A DNA stretch of 64,000 nucleotides from Deltaproteobacteria bacterium. GTDB taxonomy: Bacteria; Myxococcota_A; UBA9160; PR03. Below the pieces are notes generated by a model. The model saw nothing but the letters and a program-made list of their open reading frames with translations, searched no databases and had not been told where the DNA came from. This document shows, in pieces, positions 46 through 56,694 of the stretch. How positions within the stretch are numbered: position 1 is the stretch's first letter; each line of letters starts with the position of its first letter. The DNA is taken from the NCBI GenBank assembly GCA_035063765.1, contig JAPSFT010000021.1, positions 1 through 64,000 of the forward strand, written 5' to 3'. The position numbers and the translations under genes are program-made.

Positions 46-121
46 GCCGACGTAGCTCAGCTGGTAGAGCAGCTGATTCGTAATCAGCAGGTCACCGGTT
101 CGAATCCGGTCGTCGGCTCCA
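46..121 (+). tRNA. tRNA-Thr (anticodon CGT)
   Basis: The 76-nt sequence folds as a complete cloverleaf. The acceptor stem pairs GCCGACG (46-52) with CGTCGGC (111-117), followed by T and an encoded CCA. The anticodon stem GCTGA/TCAGC encloses the loop TTCGTAA, with anticodon CGT at 79-81, which reads ACG (Thr). The T arm carries GGTTCGAATCC. The 3' end of a tRNA gene is a usual attachment site for integrative elements, and conjugation genes begin 5 kb downstream. I did not find a second copy of the tRNA 3' end in the window, so a role as attachment site is inferred. Confidence 0.97.
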
Positions 122-1861: not shown

Positions 1862-2527
1862 ATGCAAGGCTCGGTCAGTCCCTGGCCGATTCGCGTTGGC
1901 GTCATCGGCTCGGGGATCTGGTTGCTGTTCTTCCTCGCCTACGCGAGTTGGCAGCACGCCGCAATTCCGACCATGGAGCCGAACGAGACCGGCGATTTCC
2001 TAGCCGGTTGGTTCGCGCCGCTTGCCTTTCTCTGGCTCGTCGTCGGCTACTTGCAGCAATCGAGCGAGCTCCGATTGCAAGTCGAGGAGCTTCGCCTTCA
2101 GGTCGCTGCGACTCAACAAATGGCAGCCTCAGCACTCGCGCGCGACAAGCGCGATGACCTCCTAGCCCAACCGATATTTGTGATGGGTCAAGCACGACGC
2201 AAGGGCGATGGCCCGATCTTCGAGTTTCAACTCACCAACCAAGGTGCCGAAGTAACACACGTGACCCTTGGCGGCGTCACGGGCAGCCTGAAGCTTGCGG
2301 ACGCATCACGCCAGGTCCTTCAAAAGGGAAGCTCACTCCAGATCGCCGTGCAGGAAGCAGGTATGGGTTGGTTCGAGATTTCGTACACAGATCTGCAACA
2401 GAAACGGCGATCCGCCTGGTTCCTGTATGACCGAAGCCGCATCTATGCTCGTGAGTTAGGGGAAGGGCCGATGTCTCCAGAAGACACGGGCGAGTGGCTC
2501 CGATCAAAGGCCAAGGAGGTGCAATGA
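1862..2527 (+). CDS. hypothetical membrane protein with coiled coil
   Basis: A 221-residue protein. Two membrane helices at about residues 10-29 and 48-64 are followed by a short coiled coil (about 65-95, rich in Gln, Leu and Glu), then a soluble beta-rich domain of about 110 residues. The topology resembles small membrane-bound sensor or anchoring proteins, but I recognise no family. The end overlaps the next start (ATGA), so it is coupled to the HNH-type gene. A gap of 160 nt separates it from the gene before. Base composition of this gene and the next two is visibly less GC-rich than the conjugation genes downstream, consistent with separate acquisition. Confidence 0.7.
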   Translation: MQGSVSPWPIRVGVIGSGIWLLFFLAYASWQHAAIPTMEPNETGDFLAGWFAPLAFLWLVVGYLQQSSELRLQVEELRLQVAATQQMAASALARDKRDDLLAQPIFVMGQARRKGDGPIFEFQLTNQGAEVTHVTLGGVTGSLKLADASRQVLQKGSSLQIAVQEAGMGWFEISYTDLQQKRRSAWFLYDRSRIYARELGEGPMSPEDTGEWLRSKAKEVQ

Positions 2528-3471
2528 CCCGTGAGCAGACGCCGCGAGTCTATCGACTTCGAGACAATCAGCCGGTTGTCTGGTTTCATCGATCGCTGTC
2601 GAAGTCGAATCAGTTCTGCCTCTACTGTGCTCGTCCACTGGGTGACGGCACCATCACCTCGGACCGCGAGCACGTGATCGGCCGTTCCTTCGTGCCCGAT
2701 GGATCATTCGGCGATGGCAAGGCTTTCAACTTCATCTTCCGCGCATGTGTGAAGTGCAACGCCGAGAAGGCAAACGCCGAACGACACGTTTCAAGCGTTA
2801 CATTGTGGGTCTCGCCGGCTCGCTCGGATCCGTCGATCGACCAAATCGCGCGCCGCAAAGCATCGCACGACTTCCATCCCGTCGAACGCGGCAGGCTCGT
2901 GTCTGATGTGCGCAGCGAGACGTCCTTCTCGTTCGGGAGTAACGGCCTCTCAGGCACTGTCGGGCTCGTCGGGCCGCCCCCGCTTGATCCCATAGCCGTC
3001 AAACTGTTGGCGTATCGCCAGACACAAGCATTCTTCTCGCTGGTGACAAGCACAGATCCACTTCGGGCCGAGGGAACTCGACTGCTGCCCACCGAGCATT
3101 GGTGGTTCGGTCAATACTTTCTTCACGCCGACTGGGGCAATACCTGGCTTGTTGAGCTCGCGCGGCGAGTCCGAGGCTGGTCCCGCCATGTCAACATTGT
3201 GTCAGCCGAGGGCTACTTTCGTGCGCTTCTAGCCCGAGACGGGGCAGGGAGTGGAGAATGGTTCTGGGCACTCGAATGGAATAAGAGCCTGCGGACCATC
3301 GGCGGCATCGGAGGCCCTGAGGCACAGCCCCGAATATTCAACGATCTCCCTGACCTTGGATGGATGGTTGTTGAGCCCGGCACGCGCATCCGAGCCGAAC
3401 GAGCTCTTGCGCCAGGTGATGACGATTTGTTTGCTGATCCTGAAGACGAGACGGATATATCCGGGGGCTGA
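2524..3471 (+). CDS. HNH-endonuclease-like protein
   Basis: A 315-residue protein with an HNH-type zinc-bound nuclease signature near the N-terminus. A CxxC pair (C32, C35) is followed by DREHVIG with H50, then CVKCN (C74, C77) and a further N/H-rich stretch to about residue 88. The order C2 - H - C2 - N/H is typical of HNH enzymes that cut DNA with one metal ion. The remaining 220 residues are unrecognised. I chose ATG 2524 over the in-frame ATG 2494 because AAGGAGGT lies just upstream and the start overlaps the previous stop. Placement between membrane proteins and a HEPN-like protein suggests an anti-phage or abortive-infection role, which is inferred. Confidence 0.7.
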   Translation: MTREQTPRVYRLRDNQPVVWFHRSLSKSNQFCLYCARPLGDGTITSDREHVIGRSFVPDGSFGDGKAFNFIFRACVKCNAEKANAERHVSSVTLWVSPARSDPSIDQIARRKASHDFHPVERGRLVSDVRSETSFSFGSNGLSGTVGLVGPPPLDPIAVKLLAYRQTQAFFSLVTSTDPLRAEGTRLLPTEHWWFGQYFLHADWGNTWLVELARRVRGWSRHVNIVSAEGYFRALLARDGAGSGEWFWALEWNKSLRTIGGIGGPEAQPRIFNDLPDLGWMVVEPGTRIRAERALAPGDDDLFADPEDETDISGG

Positions 3472-3474
3472 AAC

Positions 3475-4140
3475 GTGTTCTTGTATTTCGTGCAGCTTCT
3501 TGAAGAACTCGACTCTGTAACCGACCTGACCCGATCCGTAGCCTCTGGCTTTGGACAGAGCCAAACACCGCGGAGGGAGGAGCTATCGAACCTCCGCCAA
3601 CGTCTGGCGAACCTCAGAGATACTCTGCCAACCGGGCTCAAGCACTATGAAGAGCTGAATAGGTGCGTTTGGATTCTGGGCAAACTTTGCTCTCAGCCCA
3701 CCTCCGATCCCCAGCACGGGCATGTTTGGTCGGTGGAGGTGGCGCTGGTTCAACTGCGAAGCGACCTCCTTCAGTGGGCCCGGCAGCCAGAAAACTACGA
3801 TAAGGAGCTCGTGGGCGCGATCGCGAATCTGCTTCTGCGGCGAGAGTACGACTCAGCCATTCGCAAGGCGTTCCTCATACTGACCGAGCGGATGCGAGCG
3901 CAGTTTGGCGCTCCTGCCACAGTGGACGGCGAGGATCTCGTGAACCACGCGTTCGGCAAGCAGGCGTCACCTTCGCTGCCGGAACCAACGCGCGTAGCCC
4001 TGCGAAATCTCTTCGCCGGTGTCTACGTACTCTTTCGAAACCGGTTCTCTCACCAGCACGTAGCGCCGACGTTCGCTGAAACGGACGCGGCGATTGGTGT
4101 TGTCAACTGGGCACTCCACGAACTCGACAAGCTGCCCTAG
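3475..4140 (+). CDS. TIGR02391-like protein with HEPN-type RNxxxH motif
   Basis: A 221-residue protein with a GTG start 3 nt after the HNH gene stop. The second half matches what I know of the TIGR02391 (Ymh) family: an AxRKAFxxLxxRMR-like helix at about 128-142, the segment DGEDLVNHAF at 151-160, then FAGVYVLFRNRFSHQH. In that segment R188-N-x-x-x-H193 fits the RNxxxH catalytic motif of HEPN ribonucleases. HEPN proteins often cut RNA in abortive infection and toxin systems. The first 100 residues are unassigned. The family match is by eye; whether it is an active RNase is inferred. It is the last gene of the run and meets the XRE gene tail to tail. Confidence 0.7.
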   Translation: MFLYFVQLLEELDSVTDLTRSVASGFGQSQTPRREELSNLRQRLANLRDTLPTGLKHYEELNRCVWILGKLCSQPTSDPQHGHVWSVEVALVQLRSDLLQWARQPENYDKELVGAIANLLLRREYDSAIRKAFLILTERMRAQFGAPATVDGEDLVNHAFGKQASPSLPEPTRVALRNLFAGVYVLFRNRFSHQHVAPTFAETDAAIGVVNWALHELDKLP

Positions 4141-5912: not shown

Positions 5913-7868
5913 ATGGCGCCGCGAGGTCCTCGGTCTACTCGCCCGGGGACCGTTCAGCCGGACGCCTCGCGCGCTCCCGATCACGCGCACCTCCGAGGGC
6001 ACAAGCGGAGCGCCGAGCTTTCGTCGCTGACCCTTGGGCAAACGCGCGAGGGGCCGCCCATTCCGGCGCCCGACGGCCTCAAAATGCGGCTTCGGCCGTC
6101 GCGGATCGCGCGTGAGGAGAGCGGCCACCCCGCGCGCGCCCTGCGCCGCGTGTCAGCGCAACTCGGGGGGCGCCGCGCGCGCGGGCGGCGCGGGTCCGCG
6201 CCAGCCTTCCTTTCATCGCCGTCCGCGCTCCAGCAGCGAAGTCTCGTCAAGGTTTCCTACGCGCGAAACAAGGGACGAGGGTCGTGGAGAGCCCAGGGTC
6301 GGTACCTCAGCCGGACGGGCGCACAGCGGGAAGGCGGGAAGGGACTCGGCTTCGACGCCATGCGAGACGACGTCGAGCTTCCCGACCGACTCGATGCCTG
6401 GCAGAAGGCAAGGGATCAACGCCTCTGGAAGATGGTGGTGTCGCCGGAGGCGGGTGACCGCGTCGATCTCCGCGAGCACGCGCGCCGTCTCGTGATGCAG
6501 GTGGAGGCCGACCTCGGAACCAAGCTGCAGTGGGCTGCGATCGACCACCACGACACGGATCATCCCCACGTACACATCGTCGTCCGTGGCGTCGACGAGA
6601 AGGGCAAGCCCCTCCTCATCTCTCGCGATTATGTGCGTTCAGGGATCCGGGTGCGTAGCCAAGAGCTCTTGACTCGAACCCTGGGCCACCGTCACGAACT
6701 CGATCGGAAACGCGAGCGGGAGCAGGCGATCCACGCTCAGAGGGTCACGGAGATAGACCGCTCTCTGCTCGGCAGAGCCGGTCCCGACGGGGTCATCTCG
6801 TTCGAGGACCCGCCGTCCGCCTCCGCGGCCAGTCAAGAGCGTCGCCTCCACGATCTACGACGACTTCACTATCTCGAAAGACTTGGCCTCGCCGAGAGGA
6901 TCGACTCCAAGCGCTGGCAGCTTTCTCCTGACATCATGCCCGCCCTCCGGCAGATCCAGGTCGCTGGCGACATCCAGAAGAGCCTGGCCCGCTCGTACGC
7001 GCTCGTCACCGATCGTCACGCGCCACTCGTGTTCACGCGCATGGAGGCTGGCGTCGAGGTGACGGGGCGGATCGCTGGCGCCGGCCTGGACGAGGCTCGC
7101 GACGAGCCGTTCCTGATCCTGGAGGGGACTGACGGCAACCGCCACCTGGTGCCCCAGAGCGCCGAGATCCTTCGCGTGCGGGAGCAAGGCCGGCTGCGAC
7201 CTGGCTCGGTCGTGACCCTTCGTGCTCGCGCTTCCGGTCGCGGCCGGGGCCCCCAGCGTACGGAAATCATCGAGCACGGACGCCTCCGGGATCTGCGGCG
7301 GACCGAGACCGGCAGCACGGCCCTGGATCGCGATGCACTTCGTTCCATCCGGCAGACCGGCTCGCTCCCGCCGGCGATCGCAACCGGCGGACGCGGCTTT
7401 TTTCGTCAATGGCGTTCGGCTGTGCTGGCCCGTGGCCGTGTCCTCGAGCGCGAGGGACTGATCCGGCCCATCGAGACCGGAGCGCTCGGACGAACCTACG
7501 AGATCTCGGAAGGAGCAGAGCGGATGGTCGAAGCCAGGATGGACGATCGCGGGCGCATACCGACGAACCTTCGCGAGCTCGAGCGCAGTCACGGGAAGGA
7601 GATCGAGCTTGCTCGGGCGCGAGCAGGCCTTGCCTACCGTGGCGAGCTCGTCGCGTATGCCACGAGCGACGACGGCACCTCCTACGCGGTTCTGGACACG
7701 GGACGACGACTCGCGGCAGTGCCGACCGACCGGCGGGACCTCGAGGTCGGCCACGCGGTGCGCGCGCGTGCGCAGGCCGTGACCGACGAAGAGAGCCGGG
7801 AGCGACGCCGCCTCGCCTGGGTCCTCGACGACATCGAGCATGAGCGTGACCGCGGCCGGGGACGCTGA
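5913..7868 (+). CDS. conjugative relaxase (DUF3363/RlxS type)
   Basis: A 651-residue relaxase that would nick at oriT and pilot the DNA strand. The three-histidine metal site is clear: HHDTDHPHVHIVVRG with H212, H217, H219 and H221. An RYLSRTG segment at about 130-136 is a candidate for the tyrosine motif. The first 105 residues are Arg/Pro-rich and probably unstructured. Residues 270-650 fit the DUF3363-type C-terminal region of relaxases from Tn4371-like elements. The start directly follows the traF stop (TGAATG). The stop codon lies inside the first copy of a 25-bp repeat that recurs 1.17 kb downstream. Assignment as a relaxase is secure; the oriT it acts on is only a candidate at 11.9-12.0 kb. 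Confidence 0.92.
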   Translation: MAPRGPRSTRPGTVQPDASRAPDHAHLRGHKRSAELSSLTLGQTREGPPIPAPDGLKMRLRPSRIAREESGHPARALRRVSAQLGGRRARGRRGSAPAFLSSPSALQQRSLVKVSYARNKGRGSWRAQGRYLSRTGAQREGGKGLGFDAMRDDVELPDRLDAWQKARDQRLWKMVVSPEAGDRVDLREHARRLVMQVEADLGTKLQWAAIDHHDTDHPHVHIVVRGVDEKGKPLLISRDYVRSGIRVRSQELLTRTLGHRHELDRKREREQAIHAQRVTEIDRSLLGRAGPDGVISFEDPPSASAASQERRLHDLRRLHYLERLGLAERIDSKRWQLSPDIMPALRQIQVAGDIQKSLARSYALVTDRHAPLVFTRMEAGVEVTGRIAGAGLDEARDEPFLILEGTDGNRHLVPQSAEILRVREQGRLRPGSVVTLRARASGRGRGPQRTEIIEHGRLRDLRRTETGSTALDRDALRSIRQTGSLPPAIATGGRGFFRQWRSAVLARGRVLEREGLIRPIETGALGRTYEISEGAERMVEARMDDRGRIPTNLRELERSHGKEIELARARAGLAYRGELVAYATSDDGTSYAVLDTGRRLAAVPTDRRDLEVGHAVRARAQAVTDEESRERRRLAWVLDDIEHERDRGRGR

Positions 7869-7889
7869 GCCAGGCCCGGCGGTATACTG
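7865..7889. repeat. 25-bp direct repeat, copy 1 (left flank of cargo gene)
   Basis: The sequence CTGAGCCAGGCCC, one variable base, then GCGGTATACTG is repeated at 9030-9054 with a single mismatch (G here, C there) and continues as GCGC in both after a one-base indel. This copy includes the relaxase stop codon. The repeats bracket a gene not expected between relaxase and coupling protein. Confidence 0.85.
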
Positions 7890-7999
7890 GCGCGTCTAAG
7901 AGTTCAACTAAGCGAGAGCCCGGATGCCTCTTCGGCGCAGAGCCTCACCGTCACGCGTCTCACGGACCCGTTCTGGAACCCGAGACGCGCTGTGAGAAT

Positions 8000-9010
8000 A
8001 TGAACCTGGGACTTGGCGCGCACCCGTGGGATGACGAAGCTCTTCGCGCAGCGTATTGGCGTTCATTCTCGGAAACGCGTGCGGCGATCCAAGCTTCGCT
8101 TGGCGGTCGCGCACAGGAGATCCTCGATGATCTCCGCCTCTCTTTCGAAATCTTCGGTGCGGCTGTCGACGACCTTCTCGCGGCATGTGAGGCGTATCGC
8201 GCGGGCCTTTCTGACCCGCGGTTTTTCGATCGCGTGAACGAAGGTGCGCGAGAGCGCGCGATTCTGGCCGTGCGAAGAGGAACATTCTGCGCCGCTGCGA
8301 GCGCGCTTGCGCTTGTCGATCACAGCAGAAGAGCGCGCGACCGCTGGCAGCTGCCGGGCTACCGGGAGAGGATCAACGCGGAGTTCGCCGAGAACCCAGA
8401 GCATCGTTTCGTGCAGGGGCTTCGCAACTACGTGTCGCACTTCCGGCCTTCGTCATCGACATGGCGGGAGGTGATTACCTACGGCCCTGCCGGAAAACGC
8501 GAGACCAGCTTCGTGCTCCGCGCTGACGAGCTGCTCGCCTGGGACGCGTGGGACTCGTCAGCGCGCGAGTACATCCGCAGCGCACCGAAGAATGTGATCG
8601 ATCTCGAGAGCCTCTTCCGGGGGTATCGCGACAGAGTGGCGCACTTCCAGGGGTGGCTCCGGGATCTAGTTGAATCGATCGCGCGGCCGGAGCTGGCTCA
8701 GTACCGGCACTACAAGGACGTGGTTGACCAGCTGGCCTCGTGGAGCAATTGGAACGTCGTGATTCAGAATTTTGTGCTCAAGCGGAATCTCGACCCGTAC
8801 AAATACCTGCATCGGTACCTCACGCCGGCACAGCTCGAGGAGGTCCGCGCGCTTCCTTCCCAAAGCCGCGAACAGGTGGACCGAATTATCGAGCTAGTCG
8901 ACCGCCACCGGGCGTGCGCCTATAGCCATCGGGGGCTCCCGCAGGGCGAAGAGCTTCGAATGGCGGTTTATCGCGCCTTCGGCGTTGCCCCCGCGGAGGT
9001 GAGCAGTTGA
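8000..9010 (+). CDS. unknown cargo protein with HEPN-like RNxxxH motif
   Basis: A 336-residue, mainly alpha-helical soluble protein that I do not recognise as a named family. Residues 138-150 read VQGLRNYVSHFRP, in which R142-N-x-x-x-H147 fits the RNxxxH catalytic motif of HEPN ribonucleases. The surrounding pattern of long amphipathic helices is compatible with that fold. The gene sits between relaxase and coupling protein, which are normally adjacent in this ICE class, and is bracketed by a 25-bp direct repeat, so it looks like an inserted passenger. An abortive-infection or exclusion role is plausible but inferred. The start has only a weak ribosome site. Confidence 0.7.
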   Translation: MNLGLGAHPWDDEALRAAYWRSFSETRAAIQASLGGRAQEILDDLRLSFEIFGAAVDDLLAACEAYRAGLSDPRFFDRVNEGARERAILAVRRGTFCAAASALALVDHSRRARDRWQLPGYRERINAEFAENPEHRFVQGLRNYVSHFRPSSSTWREVITYGPAGKRETSFVLRADELLAWDAWDSSAREYIRSAPKNVIDLESLFRGYRDRVAHFQGWLRDLVESIARPELAQYRHYKDVVDQLASWSNWNVVIQNFVLKRNLDPYKYLHRYLTPAQLEEVRALPSQSREQVDRIIELVDRHRACAYSHRGLPQGEELRMAVYRAFGVAPAEVSS

Positions 9011-9029
9011 TGGATTGATGGCTCGGCTG

Positions 9030-9054
9030 CTGAGCCAGGCCCCGCGGTATACTG
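9030..9054. repeat. 25-bp direct repeat, copy 2 (right flank of cargo gene)
   Basis: Second copy of the repeat described at 7865-7889, one mismatch. It lies 15 nt upstream of the preferred traG start. The GGTATACT part resembles a sigma-70 -10 box, but I see no matching -35 at the right distance, so its use as a promoter is uncertain. Confidence 0.85.
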
Positions 9055-9068
9055 AGCGCACCCTCTGG

Positions 9069-11243
9069 ATGGCCGGTATTCCCGCTCTTGGGAGCCGGCT
9101 CGTGGCCGCGACTCGTCTCTATCGCCTTCCCTCCTCCGGTGAGCGCAACACTGCCGCCGGCATCTTCCTCGGCTCGATCGCCAGCACGCTTGGCTGCCTC
9201 GTCCTGATCATCTGGACCGGGACGCAGTGGGCCGCCTGGAAGCTCGCCTACCAGCCCGCGCTCGGCACGCCCCTCTACGCACCCGAACCGGACGAACGCC
9301 GTTTGCTGTTCGCTGCAGCCGCCGTAGCCATCGCGCTCGGCCTTACCGCCCTGCTGCACGCGCCTAGTCGCGGCTGGTCCCCTGCCCTGTTCGCCGCCGC
9401 TCTGGCGGCCGGCGCCTGTTGGTGGGGACCGATCTACGCGCCGTGGGACTTCTTGCTCTGGGAACTGCGCTACGGCAGCGTGCCGGAGGCAGAGGCGATA
9501 TGGCGCACCGGCCATTGGCTGATTGGCGCTCCCGCGCACTTCGTCTTCCTCGTCGGCCTGGTCCTGGCCGTACGGAGGGCGCGCAAGCTCGGCGGCCGAA
9601 CGGATAGCCACGGCTCGGCGCGCTGGGCGGACGACAAGGATGTCGCGGGAACCGGCCTCCTCGACGCCGGCGGCGTCTACGTGGGTGGATGGCTGCAAGA
9701 CGGCCGAACGGTCCCTCTGCGCCACGACGGACCGCAGCACGTCCTCGGATTCGCACCGGCGCGGTCGGGGAAGGGAGTCGGCTGGGTCATCCCGAGTCTC
9801 CTCGCCTGGCCGGACTCCGTCGTCGTGAACGACATCAAGGGTGAGAACTGGGCGCTCACCGCCGGCTGGCGGCAGCGCGGGCTCGGCAGCGTCTGCCTCA
9901 AGTTCGACCCCACCTGCGATGACGGATCGGCCGCCCGCTACAACCCGCTGCTCGAGGTCCGGAAGGGGCCGAAAGAGATCCGCGACGTCCAGAACATCGC
10001 GGACATCCTGGTCGATCCCGACGGCAACGGCTCGAAGGATCACTGGGACCTGACGGCGCAGGAGATCCTCGCCGGGACGATCCTGCACGTGCTCTACGCC
10101 GGACGCGACAAGTCGCTTCGCGGGTGTCTGGACTTCCTCACCAATCCACACCGTCCCATCGAGGAGGTGCTCCAGGAGATGATCGACACGCAGCACGACC
10201 CGGCCGGCGAGCGCAACTGGTGCGACGCCCAGACCGGGAAGCCCACCACGACCCATCCCGCGGTGGCCCGTGCGGCGCGGTCGCTGCTGAACAAGTCCGA
10301 GAACGAGCGATCGAGTGTGCTCTCCTCGGCCACGAAGTTCCTGAGCCTCTACCACGACGATGTCGTAGCGGCGAACACCGCGGCCTGCGATTTCTCGATC
10401 GCCGACCTCATGCACCACGATCGGCCGGTGAGCCTCTACCTCACCGTACCGCCCTCCGACCTGAGCCGGGTCCGTCCGCTCCTCCGCCTCCTCATCAACC
10501 AGATCGGCCGCCGACTGACCGAGCGGATGGACTTCGAGGATGGCCGGCACGCTCCCCGCTACCGGCATCGGCTCCTGCTCATGCTGGACGAGTTCGCGAC
10601 GCTTGGGCGCCTGGACTTCTTCCAGACCCAGCTCTCGTACCTGCCCGGCTACGGCGTCAAAGCGTTCCTCATCGTGCAGGACCTCTCGCAGCTCTATGCA
10701 GCCTACGGGCGCGAGGAGAGCATCGTCTCCAACTGCCACGTCCGCGTCGCGTACGCACCCAACAAGGTCGAGACGGCGCGCCTCCTCTCGGACATGGCCG
10801 GAGCGATGACCGTCCACAAGGAGACCCGGACCTACACCGGCAACCGGCTCAACCCCGTGCTCATGCACGTACTCGCCTCGGAGCAGGAGTCGCACCGGCT
10901 GCTGCTCACCCCGGACGAGGTGATGCGCCTTCCGGAGGACGCTGCCCTGGTCTTCGTGTCCAACGCTCGGCCGATCCTCGGGCAGAAGCTCCGCTACTAC
11001 CGCGACCCGGACTTTGCAGGGAGAGCGCGGGTTCCGGCGCCCCCGATGTCCGATCGTTTGACCCAGCGGGCCTGCCCTTGGGAAGCAACAGCCGACGAAT
11101 TCGCGACCGTGAGCACGCCGACAGAGCCGACGCCCGCGACGCCCAAACCGCCCACCGAAAGTGTCTCCGCCGATGCTCCGCCGCCCGACGCCGAGGCTCT
11201 TCTCGCGGGCAACGCTGGGCCCGCTCCGGAGGCTGGCCGATGA
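9069..11243 (+). CDS. traG: type IV coupling protein VirD4/TraG
   Basis: A 724-residue hexameric inner-membrane ATPase that links the relaxosome to the mating pore. The N-terminal membrane segments lie in the first 170 residues. The Walker A is GFAPARSGKGVG (about residues 228-239), the Walker B LLLMLDEFATLG, and a third typical segment is FLIVQDLSQLYAAYG. The C-terminal 70 residues are Pro/Ala-rich. I prefer the ATG at 9069 because the frame upstream (possible start 9015) runs through the direct repeat, whose other copy is noncoding apart from a stop codon. The end overlaps the next gene (ATGA). Confidence 0.92.
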   Translation: MAGIPALGSRLVAATRLYRLPSSGERNTAAGIFLGSIASTLGCLVLIIWTGTQWAAWKLAYQPALGTPLYAPEPDERRLLFAAAAVAIALGLTALLHAPSRGWSPALFAAALAAGACWWGPIYAPWDFLLWELRYGSVPEAEAIWRTGHWLIGAPAHFVFLVGLVLAVRRARKLGGRTDSHGSARWADDKDVAGTGLLDAGGVYVGGWLQDGRTVPLRHDGPQHVLGFAPARSGKGVGWVIPSLLAWPDSVVVNDIKGENWALTAGWRQRGLGSVCLKFDPTCDDGSAARYNPLLEVRKGPKEIRDVQNIADILVDPDGNGSKDHWDLTAQEILAGTILHVLYAGRDKSLRGCLDFLTNPHRPIEEVLQEMIDTQHDPAGERNWCDAQTGKPTTTHPAVARAARSLLNKSENERSSVLSSATKFLSLYHDDVVAANTAACDFSIADLMHHDRPVSLYLTVPPSDLSRVRPLLRLLINQIGRRLTERMDFEDGRHAPRYRHRLLLMLDEFATLGRLDFFQTQLSYLPGYGVKAFLIVQDLSQLYAAYGREESIVSNCHVRVAYAPNKVETARLLSDMAGAMTVHKETRTYTGNRLNPVLMHVLASEQESHRLLLTPDEVMRLPEDAALVFVSNARPILGQKLRYYRDPDFAGRARVPAPPMSDRLTQRACPWEATADEFATVSTPTEPTPATPKPPTESVSADAPPPDAEALLAGNAGPAPEAGR

Positions 11244-12730: not shown

Positions 12731-13597
12731 TCACGATCCCTCGCGGGGACCATCGGCGGGGGCCATCCCGAGCACATGATCGACGGCCCGCTGCGCGTGC
12801 TGGGCAGCGCGAAGGAGAAGCCGTCGGTCGTCGCGAAGCACCCGCAGCCACGACGCCACGTAGGCGGCGCTGTTCTCGAGGGTACGCTCGGCGATCCCGA
12901 CGTGGGCACAGAGGTACGCGGCGCCGATCTCCGCCACGAGCTCCTCCTCGCTGTAGGCGTGGTCACCGAAGAGGGCACCGTCGGTCACCGCGGGGCGCGC
13001 CAGGCGGGTCGGGTGGCCCGTCGAGTGGACGAGTTCGTGGAAGAGCGTCGCCTGGTAGCCGGCAGCGTCACGGAAGGCCTCCCGGGGCGGCAGGTGGATC
13101 GAGTCCGTGGAGGGCCGGTAGAAGGCGCGCGCGCCACCGTCGTGCCGGATCTCCGGCGGGGCCGGCATCACCGAGACGACGGAGTCGGCGCTGGTGCGCA
13201 CGGTCACGATCGGCGAAGCCACCAACGCGGGCGCCTCGACGCCCTCGATCTGGAGCAGGTTCCAGACGCGGTAGTACCGCACCAAGGGAGCCGACCGGCG
13301 CGGCTCGCGGGCGTCCTCGGTGTCGGCGATGCGTTCGGGCCACTTCCAGAGCAGCACCGGCGTCCCGCGCTCGCCGGCACGCACGCGACCACCGACCTGG
13401 TTCACCTGGCGGAAGGTGAGCCAGAGCGGCGACTCGTAGCCCTGGCAGCCGAGGACGAGGAGGTTGATGCCCCGATAGGCCGTGCCGCGGATGTTTCGCG
13501 GGAGCCCAACAGCAGGGTTCCACGGCCGCTGCCACGGCACGGTCCCGGCCTCGAGAAGGTCGAGGATGCGATCGATCACGACTTCGTACGCCTTCAT
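12731..13597 (-). CDS. ardC: ArdC-type anti-restriction protein
   Basis: A 288-residue protein. The N-terminal half (to about residue 125) matches the ArdC ssDNA-binding domain (DUF1738): VPWQRPWNPAVGLPRN, then YRGINLLVL and LTFRQVNQVGGRVRAGE. The C-terminal half is a zinc-metallopeptidase-like domain with HELVH at 187-191 (YQATLFHELVHSTGH). ArdC proteins protect incoming single-stranded plasmid DNA from restriction during transfer. ATG 13597 is preceded by GGAGGACAG. It is the first strongly recognisable gene after the candidate oriT and carries leader A upstream, as expected for an early-expressed leading-region gene. Confidence 0.9.
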   Translation of the reverse strand: MKAYEVVIDRILDLLEAGTVPWQRPWNPAVGLPRNIRGTAYRGINLLVLGCQGYESPLWLTFRQVNQVGGRVRAGERGTPVLLWKWPERIADTEDAREPRRSAPLVRYYRVWNLLQIEGVEAPALVASPIVTVRTSADSVVSVMPAPPEIRHDGGARAFYRPSTDSIHLPPREAFRDAAGYQATLFHELVHSTGHPTRLARPAVTDGALFGDHAYSEEELVAEIGAAYLCAHVGIAERTLENSAAYVASWLRVLRDDRRLLLRAAQHAQRAVDHVLGMAPADGPREGS

Positions 13598-13850
13598 TAG
13601 AGCTGTCCTCCCTGTTGCTCCGGCCCGTCCGAGAGCCGGCTCCCTCACCGGACCCGGAGAGCCGGGCGAGGCGGGCAGCGCCCGACCGGCGAGGCGCAGC
13701 GCGCGGCCGAGGCAAGGCCCGTGACCGCAGCGCAGCGGAGGGCGCGGGGCTGTGACAAAGGCCGGAGCGGAGTCCGCCGGGAGGGCGTCGGAGGGAGGGC
13801 AGCGGAAGGCGGACGAGGAAAAAGGAGCGTGATTCGAGGGCCGTCACGGG
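13598..13850 (-). promoter_or_regulatory. structured leader A upstream of ardC
   Basis: First of three related noncoding leaders on the minus strand. It contains a stem CCGGCTC (13636-13642) / GAGCCGG (13659-13665) 39 nt upstream of the ardC start, and the motif GAGGCAAGGCCCGTGAC at 13709-13725, written on the plus strand. Relative to leader B the segment from the hairpin through AGCGCAGCGGAGGGCGCGG is clearly homologous. See leaders B and C. Confidence 0.7.
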
Positions 13851-13967: not shown

Positions 13968-14450
13968 CTAGAGATCCGCGCCGTGCTTGAAGAGCGTCGC
14001 GTCGCGCTCGCGGAGCGCCACGAACTCGCCCGTGCGCGTGAACACCACCGAGTCGAGCAACGAGATGCCGAGGAGCGCACCCGCCTGGGCGAGTCGCTGG
14101 GTGATCTCGCGGTCCTCGCGGCTCGGACTGGGATCGCCCGAGGGGTGGTTGTGCGCCACGATCACCGCGCAGGCACCGACGAGGATCGCCGGCTGGAAGA
14201 CCTCGCGCGGGTGGACGAGCGACGCCGACGCGGTCCCAATCGAGACGACTTGGTGCGCGATCGGCCGATGGCGACCGTCCAGGTAGAGCGCCACGAAGTG
14301 CTCACGCGCGTCGTCGCGCACGACCCGGCGCAGGAACTCGACGACTTCGAGCGGTCGCCGGATCGAGGTGGCGATGCGGGCGGAGCGCCCGACGTAGCGG
14401 ACCGCGACCTCGCGGATGAAGTGGATGTTCTCGTGCTCGACGCTGGCCAT
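13968..14450 (-). CDS. radC: RadC-like JAB/MPN domain protein
   Basis: A 160-residue protein that is the RadC C-terminal domain alone, without the helix-hairpin-helix N-terminus of chromosomal RadC. The JAMM metal-site motif is VAHNHPSGDPSPS followed by RED (H100, H102). Short RadC-like proteins are frequent on ICEs and plasmids; their function is unproven and probably not DNA repair. ATG 14450 is preceded by GGAGGG. Leader B lies directly upstream. Confidence 0.88.
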   Translation of the reverse strand: MASVEHENIHFIREVAVRYVGRSARIATSIRRPLEVVEFLRRVVRDDAREHFVALYLDGRHRPIAHQVVSIGTASASLVHPREVFQPAILVGACAVIVAHNHPSGDPSPSREDREITQRLAQAGALLGISLLDSVVFTRTGEFVALRERDATLFKHGADL

Positions 14451-14680
14451 AAACCCTCCGTGTCGTTCTGGGCCCGCTGTGGGCCGGCTCTCTCGCCAGC
14501 ACTGGAGAGCCGGCCGCGGCGGGCTGGCCGGAGGGCGGAAGCGGAGCAAGGGGTCGAGGCAAGGGCCGTGACCACAGCGCAGCGGAGGGCGCGGGCCTGT
14601 GTCCGCAAACCCCGCAGCGGAGCCCGGCCAACGGCTGGGAGACACGGAGGGTGTGGCCGTCGGAGTGAGGGGAGACTTTC
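14451..14680 (-). promoter_or_regulatory. structured leader B upstream of radC
   Basis: It contains a perfect 11-bp hairpin: GGCCGGCTCTC at 14482-14492 and GAGAGCCGGCC at 14505-14515, loop of 12 nt starting TCGCC. The motif GAGGCAAGGGCCGTGAC lies at 14556-14572. The hairpin lies 32-65 nt upstream of the radC start. The homologous hairpin in leader C has the same stem and loop length but two changed base pairs, both compensated. Confidence 0.75.
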
Positions 14681-14823: not shown

Positions 14824-17800
14824 TCACCCGGATTGCAGAACCTCGGATAGCAACCGGATTCGCTCGGTAGGGGGCGAATCCCCGGCCCCTCCATCCTCCG
14901 GACTCGGGAATAGCGGGCTCCCAGGCGACCAGAGCTCGGCGCTCCCTGGATGATCCTCGAAGAAGGAGGCGCTCGTCGTGACGCGGAGTCCCTGGCGCAT
15001 TCCGGGCATGGAAAGTTTGTACTCGCCCGGACCCAGCTGTTCGGCCGAGCAGCCAGCCGGCAGGAGGTCGGGCCTCCGGATCAGCCTGTCGAGTGCAGGG
15101 AGGTCATAGAGCGCAGGGGGACGAGGGGGCTCATCGAGATCAGCCTCGGTAGCGGCGTCGAGGTCGAAGCCTTCTTCCTCTTGCTTGCGGATCCGCTCCT
15201 CCAGATCCCGGACCATCTCCTGGCGCTGGGTCTCGTCTCTCGCGCCGAGCACGGCCTCGCTGATGTTGCGCGGAAGAGCAGCCAGGATCGGCTGGAGCTT
15301 CCCGACAAACCTGGTGAACAGACCGATGCGCTGCCGCAGCGCCATGTAGACATCCGTCTCGACCGTGTCTGCGTAGTGGAGGTTGGTGATGGCGATCGTC
15401 TCGTTGCGCTGGCCGAGGCGGTCGATACGGCCAATGCGCTGCTCGACCCGCATCGGGTTCCACGGCATGTCGTAGTTCACGAGCGCCCCGCAGAACTGAA
15501 AGTTCAATCCCTCTGCAGCGGCATCGGTGCAGAGCAGGATCTGGGCAGACCCATCGCGGAACAGGCGCTTCACCTCGTCGCGCTCGATCCGCTTCCAGCC
15601 GCCCGCCTTCTCGCGCAGCTCGCCGCCACGTCCTGAGAAGCAGAGCACCTCGAAACCCTCCGCGACCAGGTGCTCGCGGAGGAAGTCGAGAGTGTCCGTG
15701 AACTGGGTGAAGACGAGCAATTTCTCGTAGCTGGCCTCACGCAGAGCAGCCACGATCTTCACGAGTTCGCGAGCCTTGGTGTCCACGCGCGGCAGCTTCT
15801 TGACGTTGGCGAGGAGAGCGCGGATCTCGTCCTTCTCCTCGAGCGCGAGGACCTGAGCCTCGATCTCGAGCGCGTCCTCTTCGTCCATCGCCTCGTCGAG
15901 GTCGTCGTCCGCGACGTCTTCCTCGACGCTCGTCTCGGACGCGGTCATTCCCTGCAACCGCCGCTCGAGCGTTGCGGCCAGCGCTGCGAAGCTGCTCGCC
16001 AATCGGCGCCGATAGACGGTCATCACGAAGCCCACCGCGTTTCGCTCAGCAGCGCTGGCGGCGTCGTAGGTGTGCGCGATGTAGTGCTCGACGCGCTCGT
16101 AGACCTGGCGCTCCGCGGGACTCAGGTCGATGAAGGCATCGTCCACCTTCCGCTGGGCGATGCGGGTCGATATCTTGCCGGCCTCGTAGTATCGGCGGAG
16201 AAGCTCTCGAGTGTGGCGCGAGACAAGCCGAGACACTGGCGTGTTCGCAATCATCAGGCGGATGGCCGCTCGTCGTTGCTCGTGGCCGAGCTGTTTGAGG
16301 TCCATCATCGCACCGCTACGCAACGCCTTCAGTATCTTTCGGCGCGAAAGCCCCCCGAGTGCGCTTGCACAGCGCTCGATCACGTCGGATGCGGGCTCGC
16401 CGTAGGCTGTCTCGGATGCACGGAAGAGATTCGCCATCGCGTCGAGATCATCATTCGACGGGTTCGGATGGCTCGCGCGCTCGAAGAAGCGCAGGAAGGC
16501 GCCCTCGCTCCAGGCCGGCGGCAGCCCAAGCAGGTCGAGGAGGTCCCAGACCTCGACGGGATCCACCTGCATCGGCGTCGCAGTGAGGAGGACGAGACCC
16601 TGGGTCTTGGCCCTCAGGCGCTGCATGAGGCCGAGGAGCTGGTTCGGCGCGCGGTCCTTCGTGGCGCCGCCTCCCTTGCGGCGCGCGTGGTGAGCCTCAT
16701 CGAGGATCACGAGATCCCAAGGCTCGGCGTCCTCAATGAGCGTGCGGGCACGGTCCGCGCGACGCATGAGCTGGCTCGACGCGAGGACATACGGTTCGCG
16801 GTGCCACTCGTCCTTCGAGACCTTCCGCTCATCACTGCCGACGTTCGCATGGCAGGCATACCAGCGCAGGAACTGTCCGTCGTAGATCGGCCAGTTGAGG
16901 TTGAACTTCTCGCGAAGCTCGATCTGCCACTGGCGCAGGACGGCCTTGGGAGCGAGGACGAGGATCCGCCTCGCCCGGCCGGCGAGCCACGCCTGGCGCA
17001 GGAGCAGCCCCGCCTCGATCGTCTTGCCGAGGCCCACCTCGTCTGCGATGAGGAGTCGCGGAGGCCAGCTCCCGTAGAGTCGCTGGAACGCGCGAACCTG
17101 ATGCGGCCACGGCGTGACGATCGAGGTGGCCTCGCCGACCCGGTCTCCGAGGCCGGGGAGCGCTGGACCATCGCGCACGATCGACCACACGAGGCTGCGC
17201 AGGTCCTCGATCGCGAGCGCCGGCGGCGGCTCCGGCTTCGGATTCGTTGGCGCGTCGGGGACGGCAACGGTCGCGGCTTCGCGCAGGCGCTCCGGCAGGC
17301 GCTCATCGCCGGGCAGGAAGCGCAGGAGATCCTCGCGCATCGCCTGCGGCACGTCGAGCACGCGACAGCGCTCGGTCTTGTCGGCCCAGAGTCGCGCGAA
17401 GCTCTCCTCCTCCTCGACGAGGTGCGGGAGACCCCCGTCCCAGCTCTTGAAGACGTGGAAGCTCTCCCAATTGTGGATCCATCCGGAGGGCGTCTCGTTG
17501 AGGCTCCCGGAGAAGGCGATTCGGTCGCCGGTCTTGTCCTCTATCAGACCAGTCTTCTGGTGGAAGATGGCGGTGCCGGCGCAGGGCTTACGGTCCTTGG
17601 TACAGGGGATCGCGATGCGAACCTCGAGGAAGCCACGCGCCACCATCCAGGAGAGCAGCTCGAGCGCTTGGCGCTCGCCCTCGTTTGCCGCAGCGAGCGG
17701 CAAGCCTTTCGCCTGCGCCTCGAGGACCGCGCGGGCTTCCTCGCCACGCTCGATTGCTTCGGCCTCTGCCTGCTCGAGCGTGCAGCCGACGACGAGGCGC

Positions 17801-18012
17801 ATCCGCCCATCGTTGCGAACGAGGCCCTCGATGCCCCGCGCCGCGAGCGTGAGGACACCAGCGCTGAAGTAGCCTGTTGTCCGGTCATAGCGCGTCGCAC
17901 ACTCCAGGGCCGGCACGAAGAACTCCGTGACGAGCGCACGCCCGTCCGAGTCGTATTTCGCCTTCCAGCGCCGATCCTGGAGGAGACTCAACCGCTCTGG
18001 CTCCCGGTCCAC
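14824..18012 (-). CDS. PLD-nuclease-like / SNF2 helicase fusion (defence)
   Basis: A 1062-residue protein. Residues 1-190 form a phospholipase-D-like domain with H151xK153 and GSxN (169-172), the usual HKN arrangement. Residues 295-620 are the first SNF2 RecA domain with Walker A DEVGLGKT (324-331) and DEAH at 438-441. The second RecA domain contains CTDAAAEGLNFQFC and QRIGRIDRLGQ. SNF2-type helicases with a PLD domain occur in DISARM-, BREX- and restriction-related loci, where they translocate on DNA. It is the last gene of the four-gene operon and overlaps the methylase gene by 25 nt. As part of that operon it is predicted to act against foreign DNA. Confidence 0.85.
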   Translation of the reverse strand: MDREPERLSLLQDRRWKAKYDSDGRALVTEFFVPALECATRYDRTTGYFSAGVLTLAARGIEGLVRNDGRMRLVVGCTLEQAEAEAIERGEEARAVLEAQAKGLPLAAANEGERQALELLSWMVARGFLEVRIAIPCTKDRKPCAGTAIFHQKTGLIEDKTGDRIAFSGSLNETPSGWIHNWESFHVFKSWDGGLPHLVEEEESFARLWADKTERCRVLDVPQAMREDLLRFLPGDERLPERLREAATVAVPDAPTNPKPEPPPALAIEDLRSLVWSIVRDGPALPGLGDRVGEATSIVTPWPHQVRAFQRLYGSWPPRLLIADEVGLGKTIEAGLLLRQAWLAGRARRILVLAPKAVLRQWQIELREKFNLNWPIYDGQFLRWYACHANVGSDERKVSKDEWHREPYVLASSQLMRRADRARTLIEDAEPWDLVILDEAHHARRKGGGATKDRAPNQLLGLMQRLRAKTQGLVLLTATPMQVDPVEVWDLLDLLGLPPAWSEGAFLRFFERASHPNPSNDDLDAMANLFRASETAYGEPASDVIERCASALGGLSRRKILKALRSGAMMDLKQLGHEQRRAAIRLMIANTPVSRLVSRHTRELLRRYYEAGKISTRIAQRKVDDAFIDLSPAERQVYERVEHYIAHTYDAASAAERNAVGFVMTVYRRRLASSFAALAATLERRLQGMTASETSVEEDVADDDLDEAMDEEDALEIEAQVLALEEKDEIRALLANVKKLPRVDTKARELVKIVAALREASYEKLLVFTQFTDTLDFLREHLVAEGFEVLCFSGRGGELREKAGGWKRIERDEVKRLFRDGSAQILLCTDAAAEGLNFQFCGALVNYDMPWNPMRVEQRIGRIDRLGQRNETIAITNLHYADTVETDVYMALRQRIGLFTRFVGKLQPILAALPRNISEAVLGARDETQRQEMVRDLEERIRKQEEEGFDLDAATEADLDEPPRPPALYDLPALDRLIRRPDLLPAGCSAEQLGPGEYKLSMPGMRQGLRVTTSASFFEDHPGSAELWSPGSPLFPSPEDGGAGDSPPTERIRLLSEVLQSG

Positions 18013-20927
18013 AATCCGAGCTGCTCGGGCTCGGGCACACGATCGCTGAAAGCCAGCCGCCGCAAGTGCTCGAGCGCGTCGAAGTCGCCCGCGGCCTCCG
18101 CCACCGCTCCCTTCTCGTCCGCCACCTTCGTGAAGGTGCTCGATACCGGCAGCACCTCGAGCAGCGCCTGGAGTCCCAGCGGGAATGACGGAAGCCGCGC
18201 CGCTCCACCCTCCTCGAGCAGACGCCGGGCCGCCTCGAGGCCGTCCTTGCGCGCCCGGTAGGCGGCGTGGTGGAGCGCGTCGAGGAGTGCGCGACTGCCG
18301 TCCGACGAACCCAGAGCCCCCTTCGCGGCGCGCTTGGCGCTGTCCCAGAGGAGGACGTCGCTCCCCTTCTTCTCGGCGAGGACTCGAATCACGTCGCGAT
18401 CAAGGTCGAGCCCCACCACACGGGCGAGACGCAGCGCTTCGTCGTAGGGGAACTCGGGGGCCTTGAAGGCGTCCCACGCGAGCACGAACCACTCGGTGAG
18501 CGGGTCCAGATCGGCGTGGCGGGTCGTGCGCAGCAGCCGGTCGAGCCGCCACTTCTTTACCTCCCGACGGGCCGCGTCGAGCGCGTCCTCCGGGGTCACG
18601 GCGTAGGGATCGCTCTCGTCGAGGAAGAGCCCCCTCTGGCGCGGCTTCTTGTGCTCGGGAACAACCCTCGGCGTCCCGCGTCGGAGCGGCCAGTGCTTCG
18701 CAAACTCCTCGAGTGCCGGCCCGAAGCAGGAGAGATAGAGGTCCACACCCCGGATCCCAGCCTCTTGAAACTCACCGATCCGCGCCCGCACCGCCTGCGC
18801 TACGCGAGGCTCGACGTCCTCCCAGTAGGTGTTTTCGCCAGCCTGCTGCGCTGCGCGCGGGCGGCACACCAGAAAGATCGTGCTGTTCGCGGCCGACTTT
18901 TCCTTGATGTGCAGGCTGCTTTCAGCCTCGGTATTGATGGGCCACGACGCCGTCACAGTGAAGCCCGCTTCGATCAGGCCTGCGGCGAGCGCATCCCAAG
19001 CGCCGGTAGCCTTGTGCGTGAACATCAAGGTGAGGACGCCGTCGGCCTTCAGTACGCGATGACACTCTGCAAAGATCGCCGCCATGCGCTGGCGATAGTC
19101 GCGATCTGCGCGCTCCTTCGGGTGGTCCTGTCCCTTGAACTTCGCCGGATTGGCGACCGCCTCCTGGTCCTTGTCCGTGAGCCGGGTGCGAAACAGCTCT
19201 GGGAAGACAAGGCCGACTGTACGCTTAAGCCACACGTAGAAGAAGTCAGAAAGCTCGGCGTACATCACGTTGTCGTAGTACGGTGGGTCCATAACGATGC
19301 AATCAACGCTGGCACTGGCGACGCCCTCGAGCTGGTCAGCCGAGCGGCATGTAACTTCCGTTGGTGGTGCCGCCATTATCGAATGACCTAGCGCGAGCTG
19401 TAGCGATCCAGACTTTGTTCGATCACTTAACGCAAACTTTGGGCTGACCAGCTTCTGTATCTCGCCTATGCATTCATCCATGGAGCGGAGCGCCCAATCG
19501 TATCCAAGCCCTTCCACGAGCGGCATCATCTCCGCGTACGACCACGAGAAAGCGAAGTTGTGACGGTTGAAGGTGTTCGCGATGACCTCACGCGTTGACA
19601 TCCAAATTGACATACGAGAGTTGTAATTGAGCATCTTGTCGACCGCGATCGCGAGATAGGCGAACGCCGCGCGAGTGGTGTCATCCAATTGCCCTGATGC
19701 CACGGATCCCTCTAGAAGGTCGCGGAATACCTCAACGCTCGACCCGTGGCACAGCAGTTGGCGCGGAGAGAAAAGATCCCGCCACCGTGTCATCCCGTAC
19801 ATCTTATGACCGCGCTCGTAGTTAGAGAGATCCGGGATTGACTCTGACGGGAGTACGTCCAGGGCCTCCCACTGCGCACACTTCTCCGCCAGGTGCGCAG
19901 CAAGAGAGTCGCTGTCCATGTCCGTGGGAAGAGGAGCGCGGTATCCGCGCTGCCACGCGTCGCGGAGCTTCCCTCCCTTGGTTCTCCGTTGAATCCGCTC
20001 CTTGTAAACAACGGCGAATAGCTGCTCACCCATCCGACCGGCCTGCGCCTGGGCCTTCACCTCGTCGCCATCGACAACCCGACCGCATTCCGGATACGGA
20101 CACTGCGCGTCACCGCCCCGAACGGTGCCAGCAGAGTGGTCGGCAGGCTTCGCAACGATCGCGAAGCTGACGCGTTTGGTGCGCGGATTTGGGTGCAGCT
20201 GTATCCCCGTCCCATCCGGCGCGAGCCGCCAGTTTGGTGAAAGCGGAACCAGGCCCTCGCAGTAGGGGCAGGTGATCGTGCGAGCCCAAAGGTACGTTGT
20301 GTCGATGCGTTGGGGATCTGGGTTTGGGGGGAACAGGTTCGCGAGCCGATCCATCAGGCCCAATCGAAACTTTCGAGCAAGCGTCTCGAAACGCGCGATG
20401 AGCGCGGAGCCTAACTGAGCGGGCCACTCGATTGTCGCTCGGAGGACGAGTGCAGCGACGGGGTTCAGGTCGTTCGCGATTGTCGGGATCCCCAGACGTA
20501 CTGACTCGAACGGGATGCTGCCACCGCCGGCTGTCGGATCGAGTAAAACTGGATTGTTGAGCCCGAGCTTGGCGATCTCCTCGGCCAACCAGCGCTTCTC
20601 AGTTTCGGTCGGCAGGTATCCGAAGGCTCGCCCGTAGGTGTAAGGGTTGTCGATGCGTTCCCCACGTCGCCGCGCCGCGTCCATCGCGAATCGCGCCTCC
20701 GTCGGATCGCCGTGGATACCGATCATGTGAAGAAATTTTTCGCGGTCAGCGGCTGCCGGAAGCAGCGACGCTAGGATCGCTGTGCGCGAAGCGACCAGAG
20801 GTCGGCGGGCCCACCACGCGTGCAAATAGTAAGGCGCCGGAAGAGCACTAATTGAGCGCCTCTCGCGCACACTCTCTTCGCTAACGGCCGCGATCGGAAG
20901 CCAGCGCTCGATGAGCCGCGTCGTCAC
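17988..20927 (-). CDS. DUF1156 adenine-specific DNA methylase (defence)
   Basis: A 979-residue methyltransferase. The DUF1156 N-terminus reads LIERWLPIAAVSEESVRERR. The SAM-binding motif is DPTAGGGSIPFE (130-141) and the catalytic motif DPPYYDN begins at 547, diagnostic of N6-adenine or N4-cytosine methylation. Cys pairs at about 220/223 and 276/281 suggest a zinc site in the insert. A GTG start is chosen because DUF1156 begins immediately and the start overlaps the DUF7680-like stop (GTGA). Base composition of the 5' half (about 19.37-20.9 kb) is visibly less GC-rich than the 3' half. Likely host modification function in the defence operon. Confidence 0.88.
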   Translation of the reverse strand: MTTRLIERWLPIAAVSEESVRERRSISALPAPYYLHAWWARRPLVASRTAILASLLPAAADREKFLHMIGIHGDPTEARFAMDAARRRGERIDNPYTYGRAFGYLPTETEKRWLAEEIAKLGLNNPVLLDPTAGGGSIPFESVRLGIPTIANDLNPVAALVLRATIEWPAQLGSALIARFETLARKFRLGLMDRLANLFPPNPDPQRIDTTYLWARTITCPYCEGLVPLSPNWRLAPDGTGIQLHPNPRTKRVSFAIVAKPADHSAGTVRGGDAQCPYPECGRVVDGDEVKAQAQAGRMGEQLFAVVYKERIQRRTKGGKLRDAWQRGYRAPLPTDMDSDSLAAHLAEKCAQWEALDVLPSESIPDLSNYERGHKMYGMTRWRDLFSPRQLLCHGSSVEVFRDLLEGSVASGQLDDTTRAAFAYLAIAVDKMLNYNSRMSIWMSTREVIANTFNRHNFAFSWSYAEMMPLVEGLGYDWALRSMDECIGEIQKLVSPKFALSDRTKSGSLQLALGHSIMAAPPTEVTCRSADQLEGVASASVDCIVMDPPYYDNVMYAELSDFFYVWLKRTVGLVFPELFRTRLTDKDQEAVANPAKFKGQDHPKERADRDYRQRMAAIFAECHRVLKADGVLTLMFTHKATGAWDALAAGLIEAGFTVTASWPINTEAESSLHIKEKSAANSTIFLVCRPRAAQQAGENTYWEDVEPRVAQAVRARIGEFQEAGIRGVDLYLSCFGPALEEFAKHWPLRRGTPRVVPEHKKPRQRGLFLDESDPYAVTPEDALDAARREVKKWRLDRLLRTTRHADLDPLTEWFVLAWDAFKAPEFPYDEALRLARVVGLDLDRDVIRVLAEKKGSDVLLWDSAKRAAKGALGSSDGSRALLDALHHAAYRARKDGLEAARRLLEEGGAARLPSFPLGLQALLEVLPVSSTFTKVADEKGAVAEAAGDFDALEHLRRLAFSDRVPEPEQLGLWTGSQSG

Positions 20928-21418
20928 CGTGCGGCCGGGCGCAGCTCGCGGGGATCGACGAGCAGATAGCGAAGCGCGCCGAGGACGCGCCGGGGGTAGC
21001 GTCGGTGCATCGCCATCCCGAGCCAATAGGCGGCCTCTTCCTTGCCCATCACCTCGATGCCCTCGATGCATGCGCGCATGAAGGCGCGGTTGCGCATAGG
21101 GGCGAGCGTGCGGAAGGCCAGGCCGAGGCGGAGTGCCAGGTCCTCGGAGATCGGGAAGCGGCCATCCTCGCGCGGGCCAAGGCTGGTCGGGTCCACGTGC
21201 TCGTGCTTGAGATGGCGCAGCACGCGGTGCTCGACGAGCGCGAGGTTGCGTCCGCCGAGCCCGGCGACGCGACGCGGCGCGCGCAGGTGGGGCGTCGCGG
21301 GGGACGGCAGCTGCCAGATCTCGAGGTGGCCTTCGCCGGCGCGCCGGCGCGCGACGCGCACCTCGTAGCGCGGGCGGGCGGTTCCGCGGAGCGATCGAGA
21401 CGGGGCACGCCGGCTCAA
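20924..21418 (-). CDS. DUF7680-like small protein of defence operon
   Basis: A 164-residue basic protein between the DUF499 ATPase and the DUF1156 methylase, overlapping each by 4 nt. It ends with a helical segment ALRLGLAFRTLAPMRNR followed by EAAYWLGMAMHRRYPRRVL and ALRYLL, which agrees with my memory of the DUF7680 family found in such operons. No catalytic motif is visible. Its fixed position between the ATPase and methylase suggests a structural or adaptor subunit. The family name is given from memory and is less certain than the operon assignment. Confidence 0.7.
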   Translation of the reverse strand: MSRRAPSRSLRGTARPRYEVRVARRRAGEGHLEIWQLPSPATPHLRAPRRVAGLGGRNLALVEHRVLRHLKHEHVDPTSLGPREDGRFPISEDLALRLGLAFRTLAPMRNRAFMRACIEGIEVMGKEEAAYWLGMAMHRRYPRRVLGALRYLLVDPRELRPAAR

Positions 21419-56367: not shown

Positions 56368-56694
56368 TCAGTCCGAAGTGATCTGCCTCTCGCGCGACGG
56401 CTCGACCGCACCAGGGGCGGGCACCTGCCACGGCATCGCCACCCACGCCTTGGGCGCCAACGATCGAGTTCCGACGGGCGGCTCGGCGACCCGGGGCGCC
56501 ACGGGCCACGGCATCGCCACCCCTGCCTTCGGCGCCAATGATCGGGTGTCCTTCGGCGTGATCGCGACCTCCCTGTCCTTGTCGACCCGGTAGGGGCCGT
56601 TCTCCTCGAATCTCCATGCGGCCGACGCGACGAGCGGCGGCCACAACACCGCGGATGCGATCAGGGCCAATGAGAGTCGCCGAATGAAGCGCAT
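56368..56694 (-). CDS. small exported protein with internal repeat
   Basis: A 108-residue exported protein (signal ending ASAA, about residue 26). The mature part holds two copies of TRSLAPKAxVAMPW followed by a Pro-rich linker; at the DNA level the copies are 56427-56469 and 56505-56548, nearly identical, so the duplication is recent. No family recognised. It lies between the paralogue pair and the second NrsF-like gene in the same orientation. Confidence 0.55.
   Translation of the reverse strand: MRFIRRLSLALIASAVLWPPLVASAAWRFEENGPYRVDKDREVAITPKDTRSLAPKAGVAMPWPVAPRVAEPPVGTRSLAPKAWVAMPWQVPAPGAVEPSRERQITSD

Follow-up and report, generated by a model that had tools for sequence, protein, structure and literature searches.

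A single cargo gene for a HEPN-like protein, flanked by a 26-bp duplicated junction, between the relaxase gene and traG of a Tn4371-related ICE

Introduction

In ICEs of the Tn4371 family, the interval between the relaxase gene and traG is known from the literature to hold variable cargo (PMC2789088, PMC11448139). A description from 2009 called this interval after the relaxase gene a hotspot; it is the main variable region of these elements, and insertions into it spare the neighbouring genes (PMC2789088); traG itself is equipped with its own regulated promoter (PMC11448139). The alphaI and alphaII Tn4371-related ICEs (PMC11448139) and Agrobacterium pAtK224b are organised differently in that their relaxase and traG genes are adjacent, with no traR between them.

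Here, we analyse a locus in a stretch of 64,000 nucleotides (the window; contig JAPSFT010000021.1 of assembly GCA_035063765.1, a Deltaproteobacteria bacterium), in which one additional gene, the cargo gene, and nothing else lies between relaxase and traG. Its location corresponds to accessory region 3 of the Tn4371 family (traI/rlx-traG; PMC2789088, PMC11448139), and in both systems the DUF3363 relaxase gene is whole and traG is likewise undamaged, with a leader or promoter of its own. In contrast to the Tn4371 family, however, the window possesses a single gene along with a 26-bp duplication of the junction, lacks traR between cargo and traG, has its trb genes not directly after traG but 17 kb away on the opposite strand, and belongs to an element that resides with 47-bp ends in tRNA-Thr rather than in the family attB site TTTTTCAT. 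Judged by attachment site, traR and trb layout, this element is not a member of the Tn4371 family; it is an ICE related to the Tn4371 group. Its own relatives resemble the alphaI/alphaII ICEs and pAtK224b in gene adjacency and in the lack of an intervening traR; unlike the window, the latter carry neither a cargo gene nor a duplicated junction.

The original prediction, made from the DNA sequence of the window, assumed that relaxase and traG genes are normally close together in Tn4371-like elements, which is wrong for the family proper (PMC2789088, PMC11448139); such adjacency is limited to the alpha types and to the window element's own relatives. Among the plasmid relatives that we checked, two have genes in the interval and one does not. 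The prediction also envisaged a cargo slot that preserves the expression of traG. The slot is real and the traG leader is intact, but as a documented cargo region of the Tn4371 family the slot is not new, and preserved expression is what we infer. New is the duplicated junction scar, not the location of the cargo.

Results

Host element

A tRNA-Thr gene is detected by ARAGORN at positions 46-121, and the 47-bp part of it that forms the left end of the ICE (Table 1) recurs identically at contig positions 82116-82162, beyond the window, where a tyrosine integrase gene adjoins the right end. The window past position 75 therefore lies entirely within one ICE of about 82 kb. This ICE encodes a TraF-type peptidase, the relaxase and TraG, along with an MPF set (matches to trbI, a CagX-type gene, trbL, trbE and trbB) at 28.7-37.8 kb on the minus strand; an ArdC antirestriction gene, radC and metal-type efflux genes are carried as well.

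A three-gene cluster on the minus strand (14824-24426) encodes a PLD/SNF2 helicase (PbeA, BrxH, DrmD-like), a DUF1156-type methylase (HmaB-like) and a DUF499 protein, and is probably a phage-defence system; a 785-amino acid AAA/STAND-type NTPase (24997-27354) adjoins it. At 2494-4140, a gene for an HNH protein with weak similarity to PtuB precedes one for a HEPN protein of the Ymh family (PF09509, E=2e-12, motif RNRFSH), and the pair is possibly a second defence unit. Ahead of ardC and of radC stands a common leader of about 173 nt (76% identity; 13590-13766 and 14436-14612, both on the minus strand) with a core of 47 bp (13708-13754 and 14555-14601) and a strong hairpin, CCGGCTCTC...GAGAGCCGG, ahead of the start codon. 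Leaders of this type are also present upstream of ardC or radC in genome G002 and twice in G021 (loci L082, L084, L085); the leader has no match in Rfam and could be a shared leader or a single-strand promoter of early-transferred genes. An imperfect 40-nt direct repeat with a spacing of 78 nt is found at 56427-56544.

The duplicated junction and its insert

Direct reading and a repeat search revealed the 26-bp direct repeat GCTGAGCCAGGCCC[G/C]GCGGTATACTG on both sides of the cargo gene, with a single mismatch between the copies (7878 G versus 9043 C) and a similarity that ends sharply on either side. This bears out the predicted near-identical repeat with its one-base difference and sets its length at 26 bp. 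As likewise anticipated, the relaxase stop codon (TGA, 7866-7868) lies within copy 1, and traG follows directly upon copy 2, with 14 nt between the repeat and its ATG. The longest traG reading frame begins further upstream with TTG at 9015, so that the true start of traG is uncertain. When up to three mismatches are allowed, the 26-mer has exactly two matches in the 64 kb (none in 100 shuffles); its count across the genome (4.4 Mb) is also exactly two. Only four direct-repeat pairs of the 82-kb element, this one included, score at least 20, a value reached in none of six random-sequence controls. A 25-mer of the repeat found no match in viral contigs.

Table 1. Features of the ICE end and the relaxase-traG locus (positions in the window).
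Feature	Position	Strand	Basis and remarks
ICE left end	75..121	+	47-bp 3' part of tRNA-Thr(CGT); ARAGORN and exact repeat on full contig
Relaxase (MobA/VirD2 nuclease + DUF3363)	5913..7868	+	Pfam PF03432 E=7e-10, PF11843 E=3e-19
Repeat copy 1	7864..7889	+	End of relaxase with its stop codon, then intergenic; TATACT at 7883-7888
Inserted segment	7890..9028	+	G+C 62.4%; neither terminal inverted repeats nor an attC pair
HEPN-like cargo gene, 336 aa	8000..9010	+	ORF; distant homologues in Vibrio, Micromonospora, Miltoncostaea, haloarchaeal plasmids
R142-NYVS-H147, Rx4H motif	8423..8440	+	Same alignment column in family: R 7/7, N/S/H 7/7, H 4/7 or K 3/7
Repeat copy 2	9029..9054	+	Relaxase-end relic (GCTGA) and traG leader; TATACT at 9048-9053
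Conserved element GGATGRCCGGTNTTCC at traG start	9067..9082	+	In relatives in different reading frames; after copy 2 only
traG coupling protein (from ATG)	9069..11243	+	Pfam PF02534 E=1.6e-99

The G+C content of the insert lies below that of the relaxase gene (69.0%) and traG (68.5%), and the segment has no second copy in the genome. Its ends show no inverted match of at least 8 nt, its sole ORF does not encode a transposase, and no recombinase is present, all of which speaks against the insertion of a transposon or IS element. An integron cassette came into consideration through a Vibrio homologue of the cargo gene that is located among small genes and through GTCTAAGAGTTCAAC; this candidate was dismissed because no attC pair (RYYYAAC ... 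GTTRRRY, 40-160 nt apart) exists in 7860-9060 on either strand. Without inverted repeats, attC sites or a recombinase, recombination over short homology, illegitimate recombination or an exchange with a related element is likelier than transposition. Because the genome is distributed over 57 contigs, an assembly fault at the locus is possible and may underlie the structure of repeat and insert.

Comparison with related loci

Relatives of the relaxase were collected from 13 other genomes, plus public MAGs by pattern search; a single-sequence query with the relaxase retrieved nothing from genome contigs. In five loci from four genomes (L018/L033, L006, L019, L007/L034, L011/L039), the relaxase gene and a traG closely related to that of the window are adjacent without any gene between them, spaced by roughly 70-125 nt with a single leader, and neither the cargo ORF nor the repeat is present. 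The comparison of junctions that had been proposed thus yields five cargo-less loci without a duplication. The two genes overlap, or nearly so, in a sixth, more distant locus (G065, L012). Relaxases of 44-46% identity (L008-L010, L020) were left out as not comparable; the gene after them does not resemble traG. Searches for relatives of the cargo protein gave none in 147 related genomes, none in the 90 other genomes of the class and, with a profile, none in 236 others of the phylum. Missing from every other genome searched, the cargo gene is accessory, and the notion of a core gene is ruled out.

The nearest relaxase is 65% identical, and no near-identical element carrying an empty site turned up; the empty site was consequently reconstructed rather than observed. 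When the flanks of the window are joined through one repeat copy, they align with the corresponding junction of this nearest relative, G002:C163, over 100 nt (74%, E=1.5e-12), the order there being relaxase end, TGA, 17-18 nt, TATACT and traG start; the actual sequence on the copy-2 side aligns with that junction over 44 nt only. The longer alignment of the rebuilt junction argues that the gene was acquired and that the repeat is the duplicated junction. Copy 2 retains the conserved downstream element GGATGRCCGGTNTTCC, which is missing from copy 1, and therefore copy 2 and the sequence to its right represent the ancestral traG leader. Copy 1 and its left side correspond to the ancestral relaxase end, as expected of an insertion that duplicates 26 bp.

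The locus of G002:C163 resembles the window in that its interval is occupied. About 11.7 kb of other genes, which from their ORFs we named by eye as encoding TetR, metallo-hydrolase-like and cytochrome P450-like proteins and an RND-type pump, separate its relaxase gene from a 5' fragment of traG, and a second relaxase 3' end (57 nt, 82% identical) is located directly before traG. This likeness is suggestive only, as traG is truncated and the locus may comprise the remains of two degraded ICEs separated by chromosomal genes.

Signals before traG

In the relatives, a TATACT, CATACT or TATGTT hexamer precedes the conserved traG-start element by 14-16 nt. The -10-like hexamer TATACT is thus conserved before traG; its distance from the relaxase stop codon is about 50-70 nt in most relatives versus 16 in the window. 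A sigma-70 promoter was rejected at either repeat copy, as no -35 box was found, and a promoter role of TATACT is accordingly a guess. The intact leader next to traG fits preserved traG expression. The occurrence of GGATGRCCGGTNTTCC in different reading frames among the relatives points to conservation at the level of DNA or RNA. This element also nearly matches the reverse complement of the His-box codons (WNTGHPG) of trbB in the same ICE (36974-36995). A structured leader before the cargo gene was considered and discarded: the region folds no better than shuffled sequences (z=-0.28) and has no match in Rfam.

The cargo protein

The predicted ORF of 336 residues with R142-NxxxH147 is present between the repeat copies, and its motif reads R142-NYVS-H147. 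No family of Pfam, NCBIfam or PADLOC accommodates the protein, and Pfam yields one trace only, to Adenyl_transf below the threshold (E=0.008); neither the protein nor its homologues found a match in viral contigs, and the protein has none in phages either. Plasmid searches stepping from homologue to homologue led to an alignment of seven sequences, the cargo protein and six others, all on plasmids. The Vibrio homologue (24% identity over 143 amino acids) is part of an array of small genes beside a putative AbiC and a HigBA pair, that of Micromonospora adjoins a tyrosine recombinase, and the remainder stem from Miltoncostaea and three haloarchaeal plasmids. In this alignment, the R of the motif is invariant, N, S or H follows it in all seven members, and the +5 residue is H in the four bacterial and K in the three archaeal members. 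A second Rx4H motif, R210-DRVA-H215, is not conserved in the homologues. Single-sequence models of the protein reached pLDDT values of 49.5 and 59, confidences too low for fold searches (best Foldseek E=0.6); in the weak model, the motif is situated at a helix end and is followed by a beta hairpin.

Discussion

Our data lend themselves to a model, which we regard as probable, in which a single gene, encoding a probable HEPN-type RNase, was acquired where the relaxase stop codon meets the traG leader, so that the gene became flanked by two 26-bp copies of this junction. A Tn4371-related ICE would have taken up the gene exactly at this point, and gene capture and junction duplication may have been one and the same event. 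The ancestral traG control region would survive in copy 2, which runs into the conserved traG leader, and copy 1, holding the relaxase stop codon, would be a duplicate or a remnant on the relaxase side. As copy 1 keeps the stop codon and copy 2 the leader, both neighbouring coding sequences are intact. The cargo gene may be transcribed together with the transfer genes, either from the relaxase transcript or from the upstream TATACT copy, and traG would keep its own start signals after the insertion. Its product may act as a HEPN-type RNase in abortive infection or in an addiction-type defence, beside the other defence cargo of the ICE. We read the course of the insertion, a promoter at TATACT, the RNase activity and the defence function from sequence, and all four are presumptive.

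The 82% identity between the relaxase ends in G002:C163 is too low for a recent duplication, and the second of these ends resembles the relic of another element. ICEs of this kind are known to recombine as modules (PMC2789088), and the window could accordingly stem from recombination between two related ICEs, the left part with the relaxase and the right part with cargo, relaxase-end relic and traG coming from different elements, and the repeat being the homologous junction carried by both. We nevertheless judge such an exchange unlikely, since the copies in the window differ at one of 26 positions and their similarity ends abruptly to either side, since the relaxase to the left and traG to the right have the same close relatives, and since G002:C163 with its truncated traG may be a degraded relic instead of a true parallel. 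The repeat copies might also be functional control sites: the cargo gene would have received a duplicate of the promoter or operator of traG, or selection would have kept one there, and a common signal would govern the two genes. TATACT in both copies and the hexamer before the traG-start element in the relatives would agree with this, as would the regulated traG promoter of the Tn4371 family (PMC11448139) and the duplicated leader before ardC and radC in the same ICE. The copies, however, differ in their spacing to the gene that follows (110 nt for cargo and 14 nt for traG), they have neither a -35 box nor an extended -10, and copy 1 lacks the conserved downstream element, all of which makes a control function very improbable. 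The junction might further be a favoured site of entry, where a cassette-like process acting in trans captures genes one at a time and duplicates the junction with each of them, so that the core genes stay intact and a duplicate of the transfer promoter drives the cargo; we consider this reading improbable.

As to the cargo protein, HEPN domains carry an Rx4-6H motif in which N, D or H, a polar residue, follows the R (PMC3710099), and RNYVSH obeys this rule. Further hallmarks of HEPN proteins are a fold of four helices, with the motif closing helix 3, and an RNase activity that does not depend on metal. The same Rx4H motif with a polar residue after R is found, again on mobile DNA, in HEPN toxins and Abi proteins, such as Ymh (PF09509) and the integron-cassette HEPN protein 3jrt (PMC3710099), and a true Ymh HEPN protein with RNRFSH is encoded 4 kb upstream of the cargo gene in the same ICE. 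From described HEPN families, the cargo protein differs by the lack of any detectable sequence relation and by the K that replaces H in archaeal members of its family. An R[NDH]x3H pattern arises in 13% of shuffles of the protein, so that the motif alone is not strong evidence. The protein might thus be some other helical accessory protein, for instance a transfer inhibitor or an exclusion factor, in which Rx4H occurs by chance; the database searches, with their single Adenyl_transf trace, and the Foldseek search without a significant match are in line with this. Yet the motif column is conserved throughout the family, the rule for the +1 residue is obeyed, and the weak model places the motif at a helix end before a beta hairpin, so that a chance match appears somewhat unlikely. 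The HEPN-type RNase of the original prediction hence gains plausibility from the conserved column, although it is backed by neither a domain match nor a usable structure match. On the basis of sequence, we consider it quite likely that the protein is a HEPN protein, and a role in RNase-based defence or addiction about an even chance. The HEPN-like family to which the cargo protein belongs has not been described before and is widely scattered over the mobile DNA of bacteria and archaea.

An insertion of one gene with a readable scar, together with a comparable junction relic in a relative, makes the locus amenable to direct comparison and bench test. If the promoter role of TATACT is true, the transfer genes and the cargo gene may be expressed together, and traG would retain its own start signals.
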